In this document: positions 13,229-31,309 of the stretch, piece by piece
Numbering within the stretch: the stretch's first letter is position 1
How the letters are laid out: every line of letters begins with the position of its first letter
Assembly (NCBI GenBank): GCA_027600665.1
Contig: JADGJL010000215.1
Coordinates: 1 to 31,309 of the forward strand
Source: Irineochytrium annulatum
Taxonomy: Eukaryota; Chytridiomycota; Chytridiomycetes; Chytridiales; Chytridiaceae
DNA length: 31,309 bases
Direction: 5' to 3'
Notes under the pieces: model-generated
The model's input: the letters and a program-made list of their open reading frames with translations, nothing else
Database searches by the model: none
What the model was told of the DNA's origin: nothing
Made by a program: the position numbers and the translations under genes

Positions 13229-15077
13229 CTAAATGGGCAGCTCAAACTTCACAGCCACCCCAGCCTTCCTCCCAAGCTCGACGATCTTGCTCATTTGCAC
13301 GGCCTTGCTCGCAGCCATGTCGAGATCGTCGATCGACAGAATTCGGAGACCAGACTCGTTGATAAGCTTCTTGGCGGCGTCAACCTCGGTTCCCTGCAGA
13401 CGGACGACGAGGGGGAGGTTCAGGCCAAGCTGGTGAACCGCCTCAATAATGCCCTGGGCGATGACGTCGCAGCGCATAATACCGCCGAAGATGTTGACGA
13501 GGATGGCGGAGACCTTGGGAATAAACCTAGTCAGATTGACAGCCCAACGTCGACGAAACGTTCATTAAACTCACTCTCGGGTCGGAGCTGATGATCTTGA
13601 ATGCCTCGGCAACTTGTTCCGCGTTCGCGCCTCCACCAACATCAAGGAAGTTCGCCGGCTCGCCACCGTGAAGCTTGATGATATCCATCGTGGCCATTGC
13701 GAGACCGGCGCCGTTAACTACACATAGTTAGCGCAAATAAATTCGATACGTCGAAGTAAATAAACTCACCCAAGCAGCCGATAGTGCCGTCCAAGCCAAT
13801 GTAGTTGAGGTTCCACTTCGCCGCGGAAACCTCACGGGCGTCCTCCTGGGTCGGGTCACGCAGGGCAAAAATGTCCTTCTGCCGGAACTCGGCGTTGTCG
13901 TCGAAACCGAACTTTGCGTCCATGCAGTAAACTGAGAAGTCCTTTATTAGTACACCTGGCCAAATTAGGGTTCCCTACGGATAAGACAACGCACCATCGC
14001 CGGTAGAGGCCTCCGCCATCGGGTTGATCTCAATCATGGACGCGTCCTTTTCGATAAAGATCTTGTAGAGCCTCTCCATCGTGTCCGCAGCCTGCGGCAC
14101 GCCTTTCCCGTGGAAGCCAATCTTAACCGCAATGTCTTCCGCAGACTCCCTCGACAAGCCCTTGCTGATGTCGATCGGGAGCGTGACGATGGCCTCTGGT
14201 GACTCGGCGGCAACGGCTTCAATATCCATCCCACCCTGCGACGACGCGATGATCACGGGCCCACGTGTCGCACGGTCCATAACGATAGCGAAGTAGTACT
14301 CGCGGCGGACGTACAGGCGCTCGGCGATGTAGACCTTGTTGCAGATCCGGCCCTGCGCACCGGTCTGCTTCGTGACCAGCTTGTGCCCAAGCATCTTCTC
14401 CGCGAACATCTTGACCTCCGTCGGTCTTGCATCGGCGTTAAAAAATCATTCAAACGAGAACAAGAACGACTCACGAGTAGACCACGCGGACACCACCCTT
14501 CAAGCCTGAGTCGAACGTTCCCTTCCCACGCCCACCAGCCAGCACCTGGGCCTTGATAACGAGATCGTCGACGCCCAGTGAGTTGGCGACCTGCTCGGCC
14601 TCGTGGGGCGACGATGCTGGCCCTCCCCGCGGCACCTTAACGCCGTACTCCTTCAGCAGGCCCATGGAGAGGTACTCGTGGATGGAGAGGTTGCGCTTCT
14701 GCGATGCGAGCGGGTTGCCCAGGCGCGTAGACCGGACCTGATCGCGACCAAGCGTAGCCGATAAGGAAACGAGAGAACGTTAGCGTTCTGCAGTCGCGGT
14801 CCCCGACCCCAACAGGCACGATCCAAGGCGCATCCAGTCCTATCACGAGCTCCACTGCGTCGCCGTCTCCGCCTGCTCCAAGGCATCCGGGCGGTCCCGA
14901 CGGCGCTGCGGAATGGCGGTAAGGGCGCGAACCGCCGGACCGTCCGCCATCCTCTGTCCCGGGCCCTCCTCACATCGGGCCCCACGCGATCGGCATGCCA
15001 GCGTCTCTACGAACCGGCTGTCCGGCCAGGCGCTGGCTCGAAGCGCGAGCCGCCCTCGAGAGTGCTGACGAGATCAT
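13229..15077 (-). CDS. Succinate-CoA ligase beta subunit, mitochondrial (SUCLA2/LSC2-like)
   Basis: Exons 15077-15015, 14737-14475, 14425-13995, 13931-13770, 13717-13575 and 13513-13229 give 448 aa. This TCA-cycle matrix enzyme interconverts succinyl-CoA and succinate with nucleotide phosphorylation. The mature start [19 protein letters not shown] is typical. The ATP-grasp domain shows [32 protein letters not shown] and [12 protein letters not shown]. The CoA-ligase domain shows [48 protein letters not shown] and LVVRLQGTE. All internal junctions restore family sequence exactly. The least certain part is the 5' end: the proposed 21-residue, Arg/Ser/Ala-rich first exon ([19 protein letters not shown]) looks like a mitochondrial presequence, but it uses a GTTCGT donor and a 277-nt intron. 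ADP versus GDP specificity was not determined. Confidence 0.9.
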
Positions 15078-15251
15078 TGGAATTTCGTATGAGGGCAAAA
15101 AGGGAGAAAATCGCCAGGTCGCCTTAGAAGGCAATACGTGAATAGTAAGCTGTCCCTCTATTGTTAAACTACCACTAAATACAAAGCGAGCTGTTAATAT
15201 TACACGCCATCATTCTCCCGCCGCTAAGAAAACAAAAACGCATTCCAACCC

Positions 15252-16840
15252 TCATTTGGTTCTCTTTTCCCCCGACAGGAACTGCTCCAGCAACGATAAC
15301 GGTGCTTGTGAGTTTGCGACATCGTCGCACGCCGCCATCAACCAGCTCCACCGCCCCTCCAATATTGCCACGAGCTTGACCGCAATCTCGTCCAGCTCGG
15401 CGTCGGTCTTCTGCAGCCGCTGCCGTATCGGGATGAGTTTCGAGAGCGCGTATATCCGCATGTCGTCCGCGTGGTGTTCATTCGCGGCGTCAAGCGTGTA
15501 GACCTCGAAGCCGACAAAGAACTCGTCGATGTCCTCCTGCGGCTGGCTCGTGACGACCAGCTTGATAAAGGGCGGCAGCGCGTCCGCCCACCGCGTGAAG
15601 ACGTCGAGGAAGTCGATCCGGTCCCGGGACTGAAAGTCCCCGCACTCCTCCAGCGCGTCCACGATGATTACGGTTTTAAGCTGCTCTCCCTTCGGTATCG
15701 AGTCTAGCCGATCAGTGATGAGGGTTGTAAACATGAGGTCGATGGACTTGTTAAGCCGGTTCATCATGTCCGGCTCGAGGGTGATTTGCGACCTCAGCCA
15801 CGACGCGATTGACGGGAACCGCTTCGCCAGGTGGTACGCGAGCGTAGCAATCATCCCCGTCGGTTGGTCTCTGACACCCCTCTTAAAGAAGAAGTACCCG
15901 CCCACCGTGCCGTCCTGTTTCAGCTGCTGCCACACCGTGGCCGCGATCATCGACTTCCCCACGCCCTCCTCACCCCGGAACCAAACGACACTACTATCCA
16001 CGTCATCCATGACCCGCTTCACTTCGTCCAGCACCCACTCCCGCGTTCCCTTCATAAGGCTTTGTCGGATGGCGCCAATGTCGCCACCGACGTTAGCGTC
16101 GTCCACGGGTTGCAGCCAGGCTTTCAGGTCGGCGAAAGGGTTAACGGGTGGTGACGTGGGGAGAGGTGGGGAAGGTGATATAGATTTGCCGAGTTTTGGC
16201 TGCAGCTGTTTGATTAGATCGGCCACGAGTGCGCTCCAGCCGGACTCCGACGGCGGCAGTGGGTAAAAGTCGATGTGAGGGTTCCGAGCGGCAATTTCTT
16301 CCGACCAAGAGAACGGTCCGCCGTCTACTCGGACGATGACAAGAGGCTTCGCTTTTGAGTCTGCGAAAGTCAAGGCCCGTTTGCAGTGAGCGGATTTCTG
16401 TGATGAAGCGACTTAGTTCGGCCTTCCTGTTGTTGGTGAGGCTCAAATGCTTACCTCGTAATGGCTAGACAAGCAGCAAAGAACGATGGTTGACCCCGTC
16501 ATCTTGGCTGACAGATCGTCTATCGCCGCCGGTAGATACAGTTGTACCGTCAGGCTATGTGATTCCAGGGCAGATTTTATCTTCATGACGGCGTCCTGGT
16601 CGCTCGAGCTACAGAACGCGCGCGTCAGTCACGTCGAGGTCCACTGGACCCTTCTCGGCCTCCCAACAAAGATGAACTGCCGACTCACTCATATGCCATC
16701 AACACGTCGAAGGTTTGGCGGGCCTTTGAGGCGTCGGTAGGGCCCGAGCCGGCCGACGCGAGGCCACTGGGATTCGACTTCTGGTTACGCGTCAAGTCCT
16801 GGTGGACGGCGTCCCCCGCCCGCGAGGCCCCACATCCCAT
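15252..16840 (-). CDS. TIR-NACHT protein with N-terminal acylation motif (NLR-like)
   Basis: Exons 16840-16689, 16608-16455 and 16397-15252 give 483 aa. The start MGCGASRAGD fits an N-myristoylation signal with an adjacent palmitoylatable Cys3. A TIR-like domain spans ~43-170: FDVLMAYDSSDQD, STIVLCCLSSHYEKSAHC, KAKPLVIVRV. The position of the catalytic/structural Glu in C-x-x-E is Ala110 (CKRA). After a Pro/Ser-rich linker comes GTREWVLDEVKR, then a NACHT NTPase: Walker A GEEGVGKS (244-251), YFFFKRG (270-276), Walker B TVIIVDALEEC (344-354) and LVVTSQPQ. The chain ends soon after the NTPase with no WD40, ankyrin or TPR repeats, so it lacks the usual NLR sensor. A membrane-tethered signalling switch or adaptor is plausible, but its role is unknown. 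In-frame Met codons upstream of 16840 belong to probable 5' UTR. Confidence 0.83.
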
Positions 16841-17084
16841 GTCGAAGTCGCTCGGATCGAAGGTTGATGAACGCGTCTGTCGCGTGCGGGCGTCGTCGGG
16901 TCCCCGTTGGAGATTCAAGAAGGTGAAGATTGGCCAGCGCCGGAAATCCCTTTGTGTGATTGGCATGGGGGCGAGCCGCCGGATTACCGTTGAGCGTACC
17001 ATGGAAGGACGTTTGTGAAAACTAACATGGATACATAACGTTTTTGATATAAAATCAAGTACAGCCGCGGTAAAAATGATACCA

Positions 17085-22126: not shown

Positions 22127-23650
22127 CTACAGCGATGCAGCTTTCAAGCATTTCGCATGGCCTCGAAGAACACGTTTGATGTCTTGGAGGAGCTCATCGT
22201 CTGACGCAGCAATGATAAAGTCGTCGACGTAACGGCAGATGATTTGACTGCAATTCTTTGATCTTGTCGAGCTTGTAAAACAAACAGGGGCTCTAGAGCA
22301 AACTATATGCAACCATTTTTGACGCATGTGGCTTGACTGTCTCATACCACAGCCTCCCAGAATGGTGTTGCCGTATTACGGCTTTTCCCAGTTGATGGAC
22401 AAGAAACTCCAGCATTGTTGCGGTCCCTTCCCTGTTAAGCTGCGGAACCGTAGCTCCAACGTAAGTTCGTAAGTATTGAGCGTAGGTGAGTAAGAAGGTA
22501 AAGTTCGTGGCGCCGTCGTAGTCCGTCTTGATTGAAGATTCTTGTCGGCGCCGAGCGATATTCGATGCAGTGTCGAAGGTGTTGAACCTCCCGCCCGTAG
22601 CATCTACTTATAGCCGAGCCTTGGGTTGCCACTGGGCACACCACGCGTATCGCCGAAGCGATGAAGGGCATGATGCGAGAAGTCTTAGAGGACTATTTCG
22701 TCAGTGACCGTATGAGAGGATAAATGGGTTTTGACTCTCCATCCGTCCGTCATTTGGTCAAAGGCCTTGAGGACGTGGGCGTGAAGGGGCTTTACATCTC
22801 TGACACGGGAAGCCTCGACGGGCTTCTCGTGTCCCGTCAATGTGACGTCGTCCTGATCGAACAGCGACAACATAGCCATGACCGAGTGTTCGGGAGGCGG
22901 TATATTGTCGGAGTTGATCCCACAGTGCGCCTTGCAATCGGCACTAACCAAGTGTGTTTGGTTAATAACAGTAGAGGTAACAAACGCAGTCGCTCAGCCG
23001 GGGTGACGATACCTCTTCCGGAGAAGGGCGCTTCCCTTGTCGGGACGGTCTGTACCTTCCTGTGACTAAAACGTGACTCGGCCTCATACTTGCTCTTCGC
23101 CAACGGATTAGAATATGAGGTTGCTCTGTTGCTGGAGGGCTCAGTGGCCTTCCAGCCAGGATGGTCCCGCAGAGGTCATTGGAGAGCTGGATCGGCAACC
23201 TTTCCAAGCCACTTTTGTCATACAGCACCCAGTCAATCCACAAGGAGTTATTTCTGCGGGTGGTCGATAGTAAAGCACGGCAGGAAGCGGTCCCTGACTA
23301 TCACGGGTGACGGCCAGATTGTCCTCCCCACTAACAAGCATGTTGGCGTCATATCGTTCAAATACACGAGCCGGTCGTAGAAAGTCTAAATCAGCATACA
23401 GGTATGCAATCTTGATGTCCAGCTGGCTAATGTGAAGTCCAAAGAGCACACCTAATGCGACGAGCAGCTGAAGGGTGGTAATTCGTATAACGGGTGAATA
23501 GGCATCGAAGTAATTGAATCCATTTCTTTGTCGGAACCCTGATCAACGAACCTTGCCTTGAACTTGGTGCACATGCCTTGTTCGTCCACTTTCTAATCAT
23601 GGGATAAGTGTAAGCTGCTTCGGAACTTGGCTGAACGCAAACTGGACACA
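22127..23650 (-). pseudogene. Ty1/copia reverse transcriptase fragment, frameshifted and split by foreign sequence
   Basis: Read on the - strand, copia RT sequence begins near 23600 (KFKARFVDQGS). It continues in another frame with NYFDAYSPVIRITTLQLLVA and LDIKIAYLYADLD, then stops matching near 23390. It resumes near 22450 with LVHQLGKAVIRQHHSGRLWY, PCLFYKLDK and the catalytic CRYVDDFIIAASDDELLQ, and ends near 22130. In intact copia RTs the two halves are separated by only a few dozen residues, so roughly 0.8-0.9 kb has been inserted. RNase H, integrase and LTRs of this copy were not found. Several frameshifts and stops make it inactive. It lies about 360 bp upstream of the Nsa1 start codon. 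Confidence 0.85.
22450..23390. mobile_element. Unidentified insertion inside the copia RT fragment
   Basis: This stretch separates the two RT halves and matches no copia domain I recognise. It has one 113-codon + frame (22724-23065) and overlapping - frames without known motifs. Part near 22450-22620 is open for about 85 codons on the - strand and runs into the RT, so the exact left edge of the insertion is unclear. No terminal repeats or target duplication were identified. It could be a nested element, captured host DNA or rearranged sequence. Confidence 0.4.
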
Positions 23651-23654
23651 ACAA

Positions 23655-23806
23655 ATACTACGCAATGGTCTTGCAAACGTACACGCAAAACACGTACAGC
23701 TCATTGGAATGCTCAAAATTGTTCAAAGGACATGCAACATGGTCAAAAACTGCTTTCGCCGTAAACGGGTATTTATTGAGTCAGCGCAAACTGGCACGAC
23801 AAATTG
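23655..23806. repeat. Copy 1 of a ~150 bp dispersed repeat
   Basis: The unit runs from ACTACGCAATGG through ACACGCAAAACACGTACAG, CATTGGAATG and GCTTTCGCCGTAAA to an end near GCAAACTGGCACGACAAAT. The same order of landmarks recurs at 27991-28141 and in part at 28142. The flank just upstream of this copy (GCAAACTGGACACAACAAAT) resembles the tail of another unit, suggesting a once tandem arrangement. It may be LTR-derived, but TG...CA ends are not evident. Confidence 0.7.
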
Positions 23807-24546
23807 TCAGGCGGAACGCAGTAACACGTATATGTTAGTATACATATGGATTCGATACGCCATAATCACTAAGAGATGATGCGGCACTAAAAGTCCAAAT
23901 GTTCCCGTCTGATAGGAATCATGCTCATTTCTCGGGAAAGAGCAACACGAATGGGTTATTGGTGGAATAGAGTCAAAAATCCTCGATTATAGCGAAAGTA
24001 GGGAGACTCAGCAAGCGTTGTTTGACGCGAGCAAAGGACCCACCTATACAGTTGGTGAAATCCACAGGATCCTCATAAGATCTGCTTGATTGCTGAATAT
24101 TTAAGGGACCAGCTACCCAAACACATATTGAATGAAGTGCAAGTGCATCGCTTACGAAAGTTTTGTTCAAGCTAATCACGCTCGTCGAGCAATGAAGTTT
24201 CTCCAGTCTGATATTAAGAACTCGGAGAAGAACGCCCGAGCGAAAAAGAGCGGAAGTGGCAAATCGAAGGGAAACACTAGGAAGACTGTACGGATGGCTA
24301 GTGGGCCAAGCTTTTCGACCTTGGCCAAGTTATGAAGATTACTCAAGGAGGCGAGAAAAGGTGTAAACACGTAAACGTGATAAAGTGGGGTCAAACCCAC
24401 ACTCTATTCAGTGATTAGACTGGACTACGGATGCTGTCAGTCATGACATTTCGTGATCCGATAGTATTGTACAAGTGTACTATATTATGCCGTGTCTCAT
24501 TCTCAAACGAGACGCATAGCATAGGATCAGTCAGAATATTGGGCGC
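23807..24546. other. AT-rich gap within the transposon block
   Basis: Possible 5' region of the + strand copia copy. It contains a short open frame (24132-24335, 67 codons, Lys/Ser-rich C-terminus) that I do not recognise. No clear primer binding site or LTR boundary was found. Confidence 0.35.
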
Positions 24547-25827
24547 ATGTCAAACTCCGCACCAATCATTTCGTTTGCCTCAGAACGTCCAATCAGACGG
24601 AGGAATGCGCACAATCAACAATTGATTTTTAGTTGCACATCTCAAGTTCAGTCCTTGAGCAAACGATACACCTGCCTCGCTATGAATCCGAAGTGCAACC
24701 TCATGGCCAACGACCAAGCCCGATATAACGGACTTGATCAAATAGAGACACGATGGTTTTTACCTGATATAATCTTCAGATACAACGGCGATGTCGAACC
24801 AATCGACCTCGAAGGTGGAGGCTGGAGCCTTTACCGAACATACTCGATCTCGCAGGTCACTGCGGATTCTGCGTGGTTTAATGAGATTCTTAAATTGGAT
24901 CTTACGACCATGACTGTTGGGGGCTTCAGAAGTACATGAAACACATTGATGAGCAAATCGGCAGCCACAAAGGCGTATTTTTACTTGACTAGATTACCTC
25001 AGTTTGAGTTTCCCCCTCTTGAAATTCCTGTGCCTCCGGGAACGACCTGGCTCGATGTCTATCAGATCGTCGAGTCAGAGGTCCATAATGACCAACGGAA
25101 TTGACTGAAAACGAGTATACAATCAAAGATTATGATGGATCTACCCGATACCGAGGCATTTGCTATTTTGAAGCATGAATATGGGCCTCCCGGTAGCAAG
25201 TCGGATGTGAATATAAGGGAGTTGAAGGATGCATTGCACCAACTTCTTGACCGGTTGATTTCATTGCATGGCATCAATTTTAAAATACCAAACCATCAAC
25301 CGGGAAAAATTACTATGGCTTACAAGCCGATACATGACGATAAGGGCAGAGCCCGGGTGACTCCCGTCGCAGATGTCGCTGGAGAAAATTCAAATCGTTC
25401 TCAGCGACCGTCATGGGACAAACAAAGACCGCTATCTGGTGCGATAAACACCAAGGATGGTGGGGTTCGGCCCATTAATGTTAAGCAATAACTTAACAAA
25501 GCAACTTTTGCAACAGGTCACCATAATGCTGACCGATGTTTTCTGAAGGGAGGATCTACAGCTCAAAGAAGCAGATCGATCTCTCCTAATAAACGCAAAG
25601 TTGTAAAGACTTCGAAGAAAGAGGCGATCCAGACACAGCAATTGTTGAATGTTAGCAAGGAAGACCTTCGAAGAATGATTAATGATACCTTTAATGCCCG
25701 AATGGCAGAGAATTCGAAGGCATTAGTTGTTGCAAAGAAGCCTGAAGCTGCTGTCACAACTGCCACTGGCCCTTCCGAACATTCACCTACTCGTTTTGGG
25801 TTTGAGCAAACGTCTCAATATTCCTGA
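24547..25827 (+). pseudogene. Copia gag remnant with half zinc knuckle
   Basis: Three + strand frames (24547-24939, 25132-25491 and about 25501-25827) lie in series, broken by stops and frameshifts. The last begins ATFATGHHNADRCFLKGGS; GHHNADRC at 25516-25539 matches the second half of a CCHC zinc knuckle, and the first two cysteines are lost at the frame break just before it. The downstream pre-integrase, integrase and RT remnants in order support gag identity. The upstream frames are assigned by position rather than by motif. Confidence 0.55.
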
Positions 25828-25831
25828 GAGA

Positions 25832-26480
25832 GAGATGGGTGATGCACCGTCTGGAGAAAGTATCGCGAGGGGACAACAGTTTCCCCAGGCTGAGGTAGAT
25901 CATCCTTCTCAACATTATGCTGAACAAAATTCTGCTAAAGGAAACAGACTGATGCAAATATGGCATCAACGTCTCAAACATCCTAGCAAGATATACCTCA
26001 GGAATACACTGCGACGAGTGCTTTTCCGAGAAGGCGAAAGTTCAGTAGAGGAGGATAGGGATGAAAGTAGTGACGAATATGTCAATACTGCAAAAACTGC
26101 CAATGAAAATCTTTTTAATTATACTGTGGCAAACTACTTCCAAACCCCGATGATTGTTTGATTTGTGCTGAGCATAAGGCTCGCTCTCCACCGCTGTATG
26201 ATATGAAAAGACCTGCAACGAGGGTGCTAGAGAGAATTGCAACAGATTTATGCGGGAAAATGCCAATTAGAGCGTATAATGGAGAACTATACCTCCAATC
26301 CATCGTGGATGCATGGTCATCTGTAGCGTTTATTAACACGATCGCTTTGAGATCCCAAGCTCTGGTTGTATTTAAGAAAACCATTCAATCAATGGAAAAT
26401 TATCAGCAGAGGCACGTTGAAAGTTTACAGGCAGACACGGACGGGAATTGAAAACAAATTTTTTTGAGGAATTGAATTCC
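25832..26480 (+). pseudogene. Copia pre-integrase and integrase remnant, truncated
   Basis: LMQIWHQRLKHPSKIYLRNTL (25950-26010) is the pre-integrase domain with its zinc-binding HxxxH-type segment. After a frame change, DDCLICAEHKARSPPLYDMK supplies the following C-x2-C. ERIATDLCGKMPIRAYNGEL with YLQSIVDAWSSVAFINTI is the first part of the DDE integrase core, and the second catalytic Asp lies in LQADTDG. After a further frameshift, ELKTNFFEEL follows, and then the match stops. The third catalytic residue and the integrase C-terminus are missing: the sequence passes within about 60 bp into RT sequence, so an internal deletion has joined integrase to RT. Confidence 0.8.
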
Positions 26481-26499
26481 CACCGTGACCATACAAATA

Positions 26500-28005
26500 A
26501 ATTGGAATGGATAGTCCCATATGTTTCAGCTATGGATTCGGAGTTGAAGTCCCTCAAAGGACAAGAAGTTGCGAAGAAGTCGAAGATGAGGGTTAACCTG
26601 TAACGGCTAGTAAATGGGTCTTTGATTATAAAGTTTCAGAACGGGATAATCTCCTCCGCTTTAAAGCAAGATTTTTTGCACGCGGATTTAGCCAAGAATA
26701 TGGCAGAGATTACTTCAAAAAACTTATTCACAGTTTTGAAAAGATTCATGCTTCCCTTAATACTCGCCCTATGTGTCATGTTCGACCTTGTTACAGGGAC
26801 CCTTGATGTTATGACCGCTTATCTACTGCATTGCTATTAGAAATCGTCTACATCAAGGCACCCAAAGGTTACGAAAGCATAGGGAAAAACGGACGACGCA
26901 AGATTTGGAAATTACGAAAGCACTCTACGGACTGAACAGTCTGGAAGGGCGTGGTATGAACTTGGTGTCGAGACTGCATTGAAGATTGGCTATAAGCAAA
27001 GCACGTCTATTTTATAAAATCGACACAGCAACGCGATCAATGCAGATCCTGATTATCTACGTTGACGATTTCGTCCTGATCGCTTCCGATCCTAAATTGC
27101 TAAGCAATTGAAAGAAAATTAAACAGCCCGTGGGAAGCATCCTATTGTGACTTTGAAGCGCAATGGATCTTCTCAATCAGCATTGAAAAATTGAACGATG
27201 GCATTTTCATAGGACAACACAAGTTAGCAAAACAAATTCTAATCAAATTTGGGTACTGGGAAACCAGTGAAGGACAGCTTCCGAGAATAGAGGAAACTGC
27301 AATGGTGATCACTTATCGACACGATGAGAGTGACGAAATACTACCACAGGAGAAAATGTCTTTGTATATTTCCTGCTTGATGAAACTATCATATTTGGCA
27401 CAACACACCAGACCTGACTTGATGTATGCGGTCAACTACCTAGCACAATTTTAAGCTGGTAAAGCCACTCAAAAAGACATGAAAGCCTTAGTTCGAATAC
27501 TGCAATATTTACGCAGCACTTATGACCATGGAATCCTATATTCCAAAGATTCGTCCGTGGAAAATGTTCTATTCTACAATGAACTAACTCCTGAGCAATT
27601 CCCGGTTTATGCGGATGCAAATTGTGGAGACGAACACGACAGAAAGTCACGTTTGGGCTGGGCTTTTCTATGTAGCGGTGGTGTGTGGGCCTATGATAGC
27701 AAGAACAAAGCACAATTGCTTTGTCATCAACGGAAGCTGAAACATCCTCGTTAACCAAAGCAATCAAGACAGTTATTCGGTTTAAACACCTATTGAAAGA
27801 AATTGGCTTGTCATTCAGTTGCCAATCAACATCGTTCAAAATAACCAGTCAACAATTGCATTTGCATTAAACCCGATTCATCACCAATGTGTCAAGCACT
27901 TTGAGATAAAGAGTGCATTTATCAGGCAAAATATTGCTGAAAAAGTTGTGCACTTAGAATACTGCATGACAGAAGACATGATAGCTAATACTACACAACG
28001 GTCTT
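26500..28005 (+). pseudogene. Copia reverse transcriptase-RNase H remnant, multiply broken
   Basis: Consecutive pieces in shifting frames follow copia order: AMDSELKSLKG; VTASKWVFDYKVSERDNLLR with FKARFFARGFSQEYGRDYF; LDVMTAYLL; EIVYIKAPKGYES; SGRAWYEL; the catalytic LIIYVDDFVLIASDPKLL near 27050; LSYLAQHTRPDLMYAVNYLA; YADANCGDEHDRKSRLGWAF (RNase H); LSSTEAETSSLTKAI; NNQSTIAFALNPIHHQCVKH; VVHLEYCMTEDMIAN. There are at least five stops or frameshifts. The end of the coding sequence runs straight into the ~150 bp repeat at 27991. Confidence 0.88.
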
Positions 28006-28200
28006 GCAAACGTATACGCAAAACACGTACAGTTCATTGGAATGCTTGAAATTCTTCCAAAGTTGTTCGACATGCTCGAAACTTGCTTTCGCCATAAAAC
28101 TTATTTGATTGAGCCACGCATACTGGACAGACACGGCAAATACTACGCAATTGCCGCAATTGTACACGCAAAACACGTACAGTTCATTGGAATGTGTCAG
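27991..28200. repeat. Copies 2 and 3 (partial) of the ~150 bp repeat, in tandem
   Basis: Copy 2 (about 27991-28141) shows CTTGCAAACGTATACGCAAA, ACACGTACAGTTCATTGGAA and CTTGCTTTCGCCATAAA, and ends with CATACTGGACAGACACGGCA. Copy 3 starts at once (28142, ACTACGCAATTGCC) and keeps only the first third, up to GTACAGTTCATTGGAATG at about 28192. It is then followed by TGTCAGGAAATT, a possible LTR-like start that could not be matched elsewhere. Confidence 0.75.
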
Positions 28201-29071
28201 GAAATTGTTCCACTTCGGTAGTACAGCTATGTTTCAGATAGTTTACCTTATTATCTCCTTACTAAGCTCCCATTTTCATAGTAATAATTCGTTTATATAA
28301 CTTTCTTCTATCCTTTTCTTTCTTCTCACTTTTATTGATAACGATAACTTCTCCATAATTGGCTGCTTTATTGGGTGTTGAAATAGAATAAAGAAGCTTG
28401 TCTGACGACTGTCTTGCGTAGAATGAGTGGGATTAGCGTTGGCGTGATAATTCTCAATGGGTTGTGTTGAATTGTGTGTTTTTTTCGTTAAATCCTTTCC
28501 CTGATTTTATACTGTCACTATATCAAACTGCCCTGCTAAACTGCTGGCTAAAACGTTTTGGCAGATTGCTTACGCTACTGTTTCACGGATGCAAATGCTT
28601 CGTCACGCGTCGGATACGCGTGATGACGCGTGGTACACAAATGGCGCGTCCAAAAATTAGATTTGGCAATAATTTCATAAGTGCACGCTGGCTCAGCCTG
28701 GCGTGCTATTCCAATACTTCCTCCCATCCGTAAAACCTGTTGTCATAGTAAGTAATCTGATAGAGGTGTTGTGTTGGAGTCATAGGTGGAGTTTCCCGTG
28801 CGTATTCCTCTGCTGCTTGTTCCCTTCTTCGGAGGTTTCCCGTGCGTATTCCTCTATTGCTCGTGCCCTTCTTCGCAACAAAGTGTAGGGTTCTGCCCGC
28901 GTGACTATAACGCGTGGGATCGTGTGTGGACGCTGTGAAAATCGTAATGGCTGCCGTGCAATTGCGTTTAACGCTGCTTCTACGTTCATGGCGCGTTCTG
29001 GTTCAGAATTGTCGCGTCCTAAGTCCATAGGTCCTTGGATATTGAGTGCCGTCAGATGTCGCTGAAGAGTT
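28201..29071. other. AT-rich stretch between transposon copies
   Basis: I see no recognisable coding sequence here. An 82-codon - strand frame (28780-29028, Arg/Glu-rich) lacks known motifs and overlaps a 44 bp tandem duplication. Several ACGCGT motifs cluster around 28595-28650. Confidence 0.4.
28791..28878. repeat. 44 bp tandem duplication, two copies
   Basis: Copy 1 (28791-28834) and copy 2 (28835-28878) both begin GTTTCCCGTGCGTATTCCTC and continue through CCCTTCTTCG, differing at only a few positions. Confidence 0.9.
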
Positions 29072-29263
29072 TTATTGCGAGGTATACGGTAAAGGCACTC
29101 AGTATGATCACTTCACTTCAATTGTGTCTATTCAAATTCTTGCTGGCAAAAACTAATTGGCTAATTCACTATTCACTACACCTAACATCAGGCAATATAA
29201 AATACTACAGACAAAATAAAAATGATATAAGAACTAATAATCAAGAATTAATAAATTCCAACA
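29072..29263 (-). repeat. Copia LTR, left copy
   Basis: About 192 bp, nearly identical to 29594-29787. On the - strand it starts TGTTGGAATTTATTAATTCT and ends near TACCTCGCAATA; the final CA of the TG...CA ends is altered (TTTATTGCG on the + strand). It directly follows the RNase H fragment on the - strand without a polypurine tract. Confidence 0.85.
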
Positions 29264-29597
29264 AGTTTCGCGTGGTAGTGACTTCGTGAACATGTCGGCT
29301 CGTTGATTAGTTGTTGGTATGTAGGCAATCTCGATTTCTCGTTTGTTGACGCACTCTCGAGTATAGTGGTATTTAACGTGTATGTGTTTGGACCGATCGT
29401 GATGAATAGTATTTTTCGTCATGGCTATCGTGCCCATATTGTCCTCAAAAATCCGTATTGGGCCGTCGATTTTAATGTTGGTATCGTTGAATAATTGTCG
29501 AATCCACGCAGCCTCGCGCGCTGCTTCAGATAATGCGATGTATTCACTTTCTGTTGAAGACATAGCCGTAACTGATTGTCGTTTGCTCCTCCATGTA
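29264..29597 (-). pseudogene. Copia RNase H C-terminal fragment between two LTRs
   Basis: On the - strand the fragment starts inside RNase H with WRSKRQSVTAMSSTESEYIA, continues through AREAAWIRQLF, IFEDNMGTIAMTKN and IHVKYHYTRECV, and ends TNQRADMFTKSLPRE. The last codons then read into the LTR. Its sequence differs clearly from the RNase H of the neighbouring element at 29815-31230, so it comes from another copia lineage even though the flanking LTRs are alike. Everything upstream of RNase H is missing and is replaced by the end of the right-hand LTR. Confidence 0.85.
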
Positions 29598-29787
29598 TTG
29601 CGAGGTATACGCTAAGGCACTCAGTATGATCACTTCACTTCAATTGTGTCTTATTCAAATTCTTGCTGGCAAAAACTAATTGGCTAATTCACTACACACT
29701 ACACTTGACGTCAAGCAATATAAAATACTACAGACAAAAATAAAATGATATATAAAACTAATAATCAAGAATTAATAAATTCCAACA
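29594..29787 (-). repeat. Copia LTR, right copy (3' LTR of the RT-RNase H element)
   Basis: A 194 bp LTR with proper ends: on the - strand TGTTGGAATT to CGCAATACA. A purine-rich tract lies immediately upstream on the - strand, which identifies it as the 3' LTR of the element whose pol frame ends at 29815. Confidence 0.9.
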
Positions 29788-29797
29788 CTCCCCCTAA
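29788..29797 (-). other. Polypurine tract
   Basis: On the - strand TTAGGGGGAG directly abuts the LTR start TGTTGG. This is the expected plus-strand primer site of an LTR retrotransposon and fixes the element's orientation. Confidence 0.85.
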
Positions 29798-29814
29798 TTC
29801 GTAGATTAGGAGTT

Positions 29815-31230
29815 TTAAATTTCATATGGTTTCAAATTCATACGTTCGCGATGATACAAAAACCTCGGCCTTAATAAAGGCTTGGTCATTATATCCGCTA
29901 TCATGTCTTGAGTGTCTAATTCAAAATTCTCATCTCTGAACTTTCAACAGCGTAGGTAATTGCACTTAACTAACACATGCTTCGTTCCAGGTAACCTCTT
30001 GCGGCTCTCGACGGTCTTGATTGTGCCGTTGTTGTCTTGGTACCAGGTACTTTTGGTTTCTTCCTCTGAGAATCCCAATTCGAGTAATAACGTTTGAATC
30101 CACTCATATTCTAGTACTCCTTGAACTAACGCGTCTAACTCTGCCGTTAAGGTACTCGTTGCAACTGTGGATTGTCTTTTGGATTTCCAACTAATCAAAC
30201 TCTTTCCGAAATATATCAGGTACCCCCCGACGGACTTGGATGAGGAATCGGCGGCCCAGTCGGAGTCGGCATACCCGACTAAGGTGGGTAGCTCTTCTGA
30301 CTTCTTAAATTCCAGTGCATAATCTCGAGTTCTTTTCAAGTATTTTAGGACACGTAACCCATGCTTCCAATGGGTCTCGGTAGGTTTCTCTAGATATCGG
30401 CTTAACAAACTAACTGCATATGCTATATCCGGCCTGGACGTCTGGGTCAAATACATGGTGGACCCGAGGAGTGATCGGTAAGGTTTTATCGTAATTTCGC
30501 CTTCGATATCTTCGAGTACTAAATTTGCTTCCATGGGCGTATCAACTGAATTCGACTCCGTCATTTGGAATTTTTCAAGTATATTATCAATGAAATTGTG
30601 CTGACGGATTTTCACTTCGCAGGTATCAGTTTGCTCGACAATCATTCCGAGGTACTGCTTCACTTTTCCGAGTTTCTTAACTTCATACTTTGACTCTAAA
30701 ATCTTTTCAATTTTCACCCGTAGGTGAGGACTCTCCCGGTGAGTGAGAACTAGGATGTCGTCGACGTATAAAATGACTAATTGTAAATTTTTGATATCTC
30801 TGATGGACCCTCTGAAATACAGGCATGGATCGGCAACGGCTCGTGCAAACTTTGCGGAGATAAGTGTTTTGTTAATTTCTTCATTCCAGCATTCTCCTCC
30901 TTGTTTTATACCATATAATCCCTTCAACACTTCTGCGCCAATATAGTTTTTAATTTCATATCCTTCAGGTAATTCGATGAATAATTGATGTTTTAAAATA
31001 CCATTTAGGTAAGCAGAACTTATATCGAATGAATGAATTTCTAACTCATATTCGGCAACTAATGCAAAACAGATTCGGATCGTAGTAAAATTCGCGACTG
31101 GACTAAAGGTATTGAAATAATCGATGTCTGCAATCTGAGTGAATCCTTTTCCTACCCAGCGAGCGTGGTACTCTTTGATGTTTCCATTTTCGTCACGCTT
31201 TTTAACGAATACCCATTTCGCTTTCATCAT
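29815..31230 (-). pseudogene. Copia pol (reverse transcriptase-RNase H), near intact with one internal TGA
   Basis: A 428-codon frame from 31230 contains the RT: AKWVFVKKRDENGNIKEYHA, ARWVGKGFTQIADIDYFNTF, SFDISSAYLNGIL, GLYGIKQGGECW and the catalytic VILYVDDILVLTH. The connection and RNase H follow: PYRSLLGSTMYLTQTSRPDI, GYADSDWAADSSSKSVGGYL, ISWKSKRQSTVATS, TAELDAL and WYQDNNGTIKTV. It stops at a TGA (29946-29944). Beyond that stop the same frame continues with KFRDENFELDTQDMIADIMT and ends at TAA 29817-29815, so a single nonsense codon separates it from a full C-terminus. Upstream of 31230 the frame stays open to the window edge, but the residues no longer resemble copia pol. Gag, integrase and the 5' LTR are not in the window. 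Confidence 0.9.
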
Positions 31231-31309
31231 ATTGTTGTAACAGCAGGAATTCGCTCTAACACTGACCTGCGTGCTGATCTCGTAGAAATGGTGATAATTG
31301 GAGAGATGG

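Follow-up and report, generated by a model that had tools for sequence, protein, structure and literature searches.

The gene and its coding signal

The window analysed here is a stretch of 31,309 nucleotides (nt) from the aquatic chytrid Irineochytrium annulatum (Chytridiales; contig JADGJL010000215.1). Its minus strand carries, at 15252..16840, a three-exon gene for a short protein in which a TIR domain is followed by a NACHT core. Among chytrids there are TIR-NACHT-WD40 proteins similar to NOD-like receptors (NLRs), and the protein may be a minimal relative of these that has been truncated and evolves fast. The minus-strand exons 16840-16689, 16608-16455, and 16397-15252 join into 483 residues without an internal stop. 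Exon 1 (16689..16840), defined by the splice model and a coding-like codon score of 0.196, encodes the MGCGAS start, a 40-residue linker, and the first TIR strand (FDVLMAYD). Intron 1 (16609..16688; 80 nt, GTGAGT...CTGTAG) separates it from exon 2 (16455..16608), which encodes TIR alpha-A to beta-C including a shortened BB-loop region (residues 72-80). After intron 2 (16398..16454; 57 nt, GTAAGC...TCACAG), exon 3 (15252..16397) encodes the remaining TIR, a linker, the NACHT domain (NBD and HD1), and the stop codon (15254-15252).

An earlier note on this DNA had proposed the junctions 16689/16608 and 16455/16397, and both are reproduced exactly with the frame open. Pairing of splice sites gives 42 two-intron GT..AG combinations with an open frame of more than 430 amino acids (aa). 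The chosen model has the top splice-site score by our own simple scoring (12.0), tied with one other model that lacks 18 TIR residues. The 80- and 57-nt introns fit the sizes read in the neighbouring urease gene, whose four introns are 52, 54, 55, and 98 nt. Inside both introns, sequences resembling the branch-point consensus (CTGAC and ACTAAG) are seen by eye. At the local base composition, 483 open codons are expected by chance with a probability of 3.5e-8. The GC content at third codon positions is 0.75 in the coding sequence, and its other two frames contain 22 and 16 stops. Codon scores (in bits per codon) are coding-like in exon 1 (0.196), NACHT (0.470), and the tail (0.246); a score of 0.06 marks both the 95th percentile for noncoding windows and the 5th percentile for coding ones. 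Over NACHT the bias is frame-specific: the coding frame scores 0.47, the remaining two frames of the strand -0.37 and -0.43. The minus-strand three-exon gene is thus confirmed as real, and the model proposed earlier as exact.

A protein search with the window protein finds the deposited I. annulatum record HK101_004648 (13229-15371, minus strand), in which the NACHT exon is fused to succinyl-CoA ligase beta. The record starts within the NACHT exon, and therefore the TIR is missing from it. A 634-nt junction with the donor GTGGCAAT (15371-14738) then carries it past the stop codon and on into the ligase. The fusion has the standing of a database record, but it discards the TIR, and its junction skips a stop where the other introns read are 52-98 nt. 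We rejected it on both grounds: the NACHT-succinyl-CoA ligase fusion is probably an annotation error, and there is next to no chance that the gene is as deposited. The three-exon TIR-NACHT model is better than HK101_004648 and corrects a public annotation that drops the TIR domain and creates a spurious metabolic fusion. Elsewhere in the window, fragments of copia-type retrotransposon frames, named by eye from translations, lie on both strands at 22900-31309; one of them (29944-31308, minus strand) is open at the contig end.

Domains, altered residues and the N-terminus

The TIR-like domain claimed by the earlier note for residues 43-170 is recognized by Pfam as TIR_2 at residues 46-147 (16263..16705, minus strand, interrupted by the two introns; 7.4e-8, 33.4 bits against a curated cut-off of 28). 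Comparison with chytrid TIRs and alignment to SARM1 place codon 110 (16374..16376, minus strand) where the catalytic glutamate of a TIR would be; it encodes alanine. All 12 chytrid TIRs readable at this position of alpha-C have Glu. The BB loop is 6-7 residues shorter than in the relatives (alignment and count by eye). Judged from these residues, the window TIR is most likely not an NADase. A search with the TIR region alone returned the deposited fragment itself as the sole protein match, and the TIR of the window, interrupted as it is by introns, was not listed by the scan for TIRs. TIR proteins with ankyrin-like repeats downstream, seen by eye in three-frame translations, are found at L006-L010 (contigs C8, C524, C295, and C118); by eye, these genes have an intron directly after the first TIR strand. 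A weaker TIR match (L015, contig C375) apparently has its alpha-C in another frame past an intron (CESEY), also with Glu, and is not included in the count above.

The NACHT core is matched by Pfam NPHP3_N at residues 219-386 (15546..16049, minus strand; 1.1e-23, 84.6 bits) and by Pfam NACHT at residues 239-403 (1e-8, 35.7 bits); like TIR_2, both are above their curated cut-offs. It is preceded by WLQPVD (residues 196-201; 16101..16118, minus strand), a motif common to the chytrid relatives, in which the stretch before NACHT reads W-L-x-P and then TRxW, with variations. The domain had been described as a canonical NACHT. This holds for Walker A (GEEGVGKS, residues 244-251); Walker B (residues 349-354) is DALEEC where most relatives have DALDEC. 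Furthermore, codon 387 (15543..15545, minus strand), where the sensor-1 arginine is expected, encodes Gln. The window protein thus has TSQ, whereas the motif could be located in 20 of the 27 relatives examined and is TSR in every one of the 20.

The protein terminates at HD1. A winged-helix domain after HD1 is absent by alignment to relatives, by the ranges of the structural model, and by the lack of a Pfam match there. C-terminal WD40, ANK, TPR, or LRR repeats are absent as well, with the stop at 15252-15254 and no repeat family in the Pfam scan. An NLR core that lacks both winged-helix domain and sensor is not known to undergo the usual switching. The membrane-tethered immune or self-recognition switch suggested earlier is unsupported as a working switch, since the catalytic Glu, sensor-1 Arg, winged-helix domain, and sensor repeats are all missing. 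A TIR NADase switch tethered to the membrane and acting in immunity or self-recognition would agree with the presence of TIR and NACHT domains and the acylation-type start, but the Glu to Ala change, the short BB loop, the sensor-1 Arg to Gln change, and the absent winged-helix domain and sensor make it very unlikely. The window protein is unmatched in PADLOC.

Fold prediction was made for exon 3 alone, and therefore the TIR assignment rests on the profile evidence. The mean pLDDT of the model is 83.6. Its first 70 residues, of low to middling confidence, appear to be arranged as strand-helix-strand-helix, as would be expected of the second half of a TIR. Structural match ranges span model residues 106-386. 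A sequence search of the PDB with the whole protein gave no match at E values up to 1.

Three in-frame ATGs can be considered as the start. The ATG of MGCGAS, with G at -3 and G at +4, has the best context of the three and is a plausible start; the two upstream, at 17002 and 16966, have T or C at -3. If one of these were the true start, MGCGAS would be internal and the lipid anchor absent, and the Arg-rich extension (16841..17002, minus strand) might be a targeting peptide. All 54 codons from 17002 to 16840 are open; however, both upstream ATGs are in poor context and the extension (17002-16841) scores -0.03 against 0.20 for exon 1, which is not coding-like. We consider an upstream start unlikely.

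Provided that the MGCGAS ATG is the start, MGCGASR matches the PROSITE-type myristoylation pattern MG-x3-[ST]-[KR] and has a palmitoylatable Cys3. With the usual exclusions, the pattern is matched by two of the 1631 ATGs that are followed by ten open codons (13 records, 70,531 bases), a sample that is non-random because one record (L001) was chosen for its NACHT match. The 13 records do not include L010, nor L002 and L012, which were set aside as overlapping. The two are the MGCGAS start and the start of the NACHT protein at L001:1114. The myristoylation/palmitoylation signature noted earlier therefore agrees with the pattern, with Cys3 and with the start context, while the start codon itself is unproven. 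With that start, N-terminal myristate and palmitate (on G2 and C3) would probably be present. The second NACHT protein, from contig C907 of the same genome (L001:1114-3324, plus strand; 39.5 bits), has no TIR match. The first ATG of its open reading frame, in good context, gives MGGGSSKSSSKG, a myristoylation-type start (MGGGSSK).

Relatives in chytrid genomes

Relatives were collected by protein searches and by a profile built from the window protein, a paralogue at contig C388, and one Blyttiomyces protein, which returned 16 proteins. Scoring in these searches was limited to the candidates with the most words in common (7993; 7995 in the profile search), and so relatives can be missed. The NACHT set of the genome, scored exon by exon, contains at least four matches. 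In the same species, HK101_007329 (P0013) is a TIR-NACHT-WD40-ANK protein of 1579 aa. Rhizophlyctis rosea has two NACHT-WD40 proteins with TIR, HDV00_001591 (P0015) and HDV00_002764 (P0014); TIR_2 is in the precomputed list for P0015, while P0014 reaches only 18.7 bits, below the cut-off. P0014 begins with a very hydrophobic helix (residues 1-25; a Kyte-Doolittle value of 2.27 over 19 residues), a possible membrane anchor. A Chytriomyces fragment among the relatives has NACHT and no TIR. Relatives with both TIR and NACHT, mostly with WD40 repeats, are thus found in Irineochytrium, Rhizophlyctis, and Blyttiomyces. The window protein is 28-31% identical to its nearest relatives.

The NACHT tree sets the window protein beside 23 of the 27 relatives, 24 rows in all (P0024, P0026, P0027, P0028, and the deposited copy P0001 were excluded). 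A single clade of the window row and five chytrid rows is not rejected (p-AU 0.263), but it is not shown either.

In a passage of a 2014 survey, the fungi with NLRs are confined to those that are filamentous and multicellular (PMC4986451). A passage of a 2022 paper, citing earlier works, states that TIR NLRs had been reported from Chytridiomycota (PMC9815663). With this report and the relatives in three chytrid genera, the TIR-NACHT architecture is not new in fungi, and the rarity assumed for it in the earlier note does not hold. The terms 'fungi', 'chytrid', and 'NACHT' do not appear in the main text of a TIR atlas (PMC13142454). In the titles and extracts of the literature searched, 'TIR-NACHT' as a term occurs for amphioxus only, and no fungal title concerns a myristoylated NACHT NLR. 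Within the same material, no precedent was met for a truncated, catalytically dead, acylation-type TIR-NACHT protein.

Possible function and comparison with known systems

The window protein keeps a recognizable TIR, Walker A, and probable N-terminal myristate and palmitate. It lacks the TIR catalytic Glu, the full BB loop, the sensor-1 Arg, the winged-helix domain, and the sensor repeats. With the catalytic residues and the sensor half lost, a role as scaffold or regulator may replace that of a toxic enzyme switch. According to part of a published account (PMC9153377), loss of the catalytic Glu does not keep a TIR from assembling with other TIRs. The reading we favour, to which we give about an even chance, is that the TIR-NACHT protein is acylated and enzymatically dead and acts as a scaffold or regulator, not as a self-contained sensor. 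Its acylated N-terminus would seat it at a membrane, where it could bind TIR or NACHT partners, e.g., the catalytically complete HK101_007329, which is encoded in the same genome. In the most economical case, it would act on complete TIR or TIR-NACHT proteins as a scaffold or as a subunit that restrains them.

Some of the results count against this reading. The MGCGAS start is not settled, with in-frame ATGs upstream at 17002 and 16966. The top rows of the Foldseek search are ORC and other AAA+ proteins (template modelling (TM) scores 0.26-0.47), not NLRs. In the tree, the five other chytrid rows are grouped at 94/91, and the window row lies next to but outside them, on a long branch (1.82). 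The codon score is weak (-0.003) over the exon-3 TIR/linker and borderline (0.058) in exon 2. The long branch and the weak codon signal over TIR and linker, together with the missing winged-helix domain, repeats, and catalytic residues, would also suit a relic, i.e., a recently truncated TIR-NACHT-WD40 gene that is now functionless and heading for loss. However, with the nearest relatives 28-31% identical, the frame, splice sites, Walker A, and the frame-specific codon bias of NACHT are all intact, and we regard a relic as doubtful.

Chytrids have flagellated zoospores, and the window protein could instead be a flagellar-membrane protein like mammalian NPHP3, which is myristoylated, bears NPHP3_N, and is carried to the cilium by UNC119. 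A palmitate at Cys3, on the other hand, would favour the plasma membrane. NPHP3_N is the best Pfam match here (1.1e-23) and NPHP3 is myristoylated at residue 2 (PMC9266639, in part), but NPHP3_N also matches general fungal NACHT proteins, which leaves the flagellar alternative highly improbable.

A broader form of the scaffold reading is that chytrids evolved membrane-anchored NACHT proteins, either by acylation (the window protein and the MGGGSSK protein) or by a hydrophobic helix (P0014), and that the window protein is a TIR pseudoenzyme restraining or nucleating the complete TIR-NACHT of the genome at the plasma or flagellar membrane. This is a speculation that we hold to be quite unlikely as a whole. 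If the pseudoenzyme reading is true, an early-diverging fungus would have a layer of regulation by dead TIRs. If the favoured reading is true, early-diverging fungi would hold true TIR-NACHT receptors as well as truncated versions that are catalytically dead and anchored by lipid, to which animal adaptor TIRs and plant truncated TIR-NBS proteins offer a parallel.

The closest known systems are the chytrid TIR-NACHT-WD40 proteins P0013, P0014, and P0015. They share with the window protein the order of TIR, W-L-x-P-V/L-D ... GTRxW, and NPHP3_N/NACHT. Both the catalytic Glu and the sensor-1 Arg, absent from the window protein, are retained in these proteins, and they go on with WD40 repeats (P0013 also with ankyrin repeats) where the window protein stops after HD1. 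The N-terminus of P0014 is a hydrophobic helix, whereas the MGCGAS start proposed for the window protein is an acylation-type motif. Blyttiomyces sp. HDU76_001528 (P0002) also combines TIR_2 and NPHP3_N without repeats in its deposited model. Its N-terminus, unlike that of the window protein, is PB1-like, although at 19.9 bits the match falls short of the cut-off of 23.6. The deposited model cuts its TIR short, and so its Glu is unreadable.

In plants, truncated NLR forms exist (TIR-NBS without LRR), and plant TIRs mostly retain Glu. Plant TIR-NBS proteins and acylated coiled-coil NLRs (CNLs) such as RPS5 have NB-ARC, whereas the window protein has NACHT. Group B CNLs (RPS5 type) have N-terminal Gly/Cys acylation motifs like the putative one of the window protein, as described in a section of PMC6312357. 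The TIRs of MyD88/MAL-type adaptors assemble without detectable NADase activity, according to a passage of PMC9153377; these adaptors have no NACHT, while the window protein has one. Within fungi, the HET-NACHT-WD40 NLRs of Dikarya (HET-E type) similarly place a TIR-like effector before NACHT (PMC4986451, in the part concerned). Their effector is HET and not a true TIR, and they have WD40 repeats, whereas the window protein has a TIR and ends without repeats.
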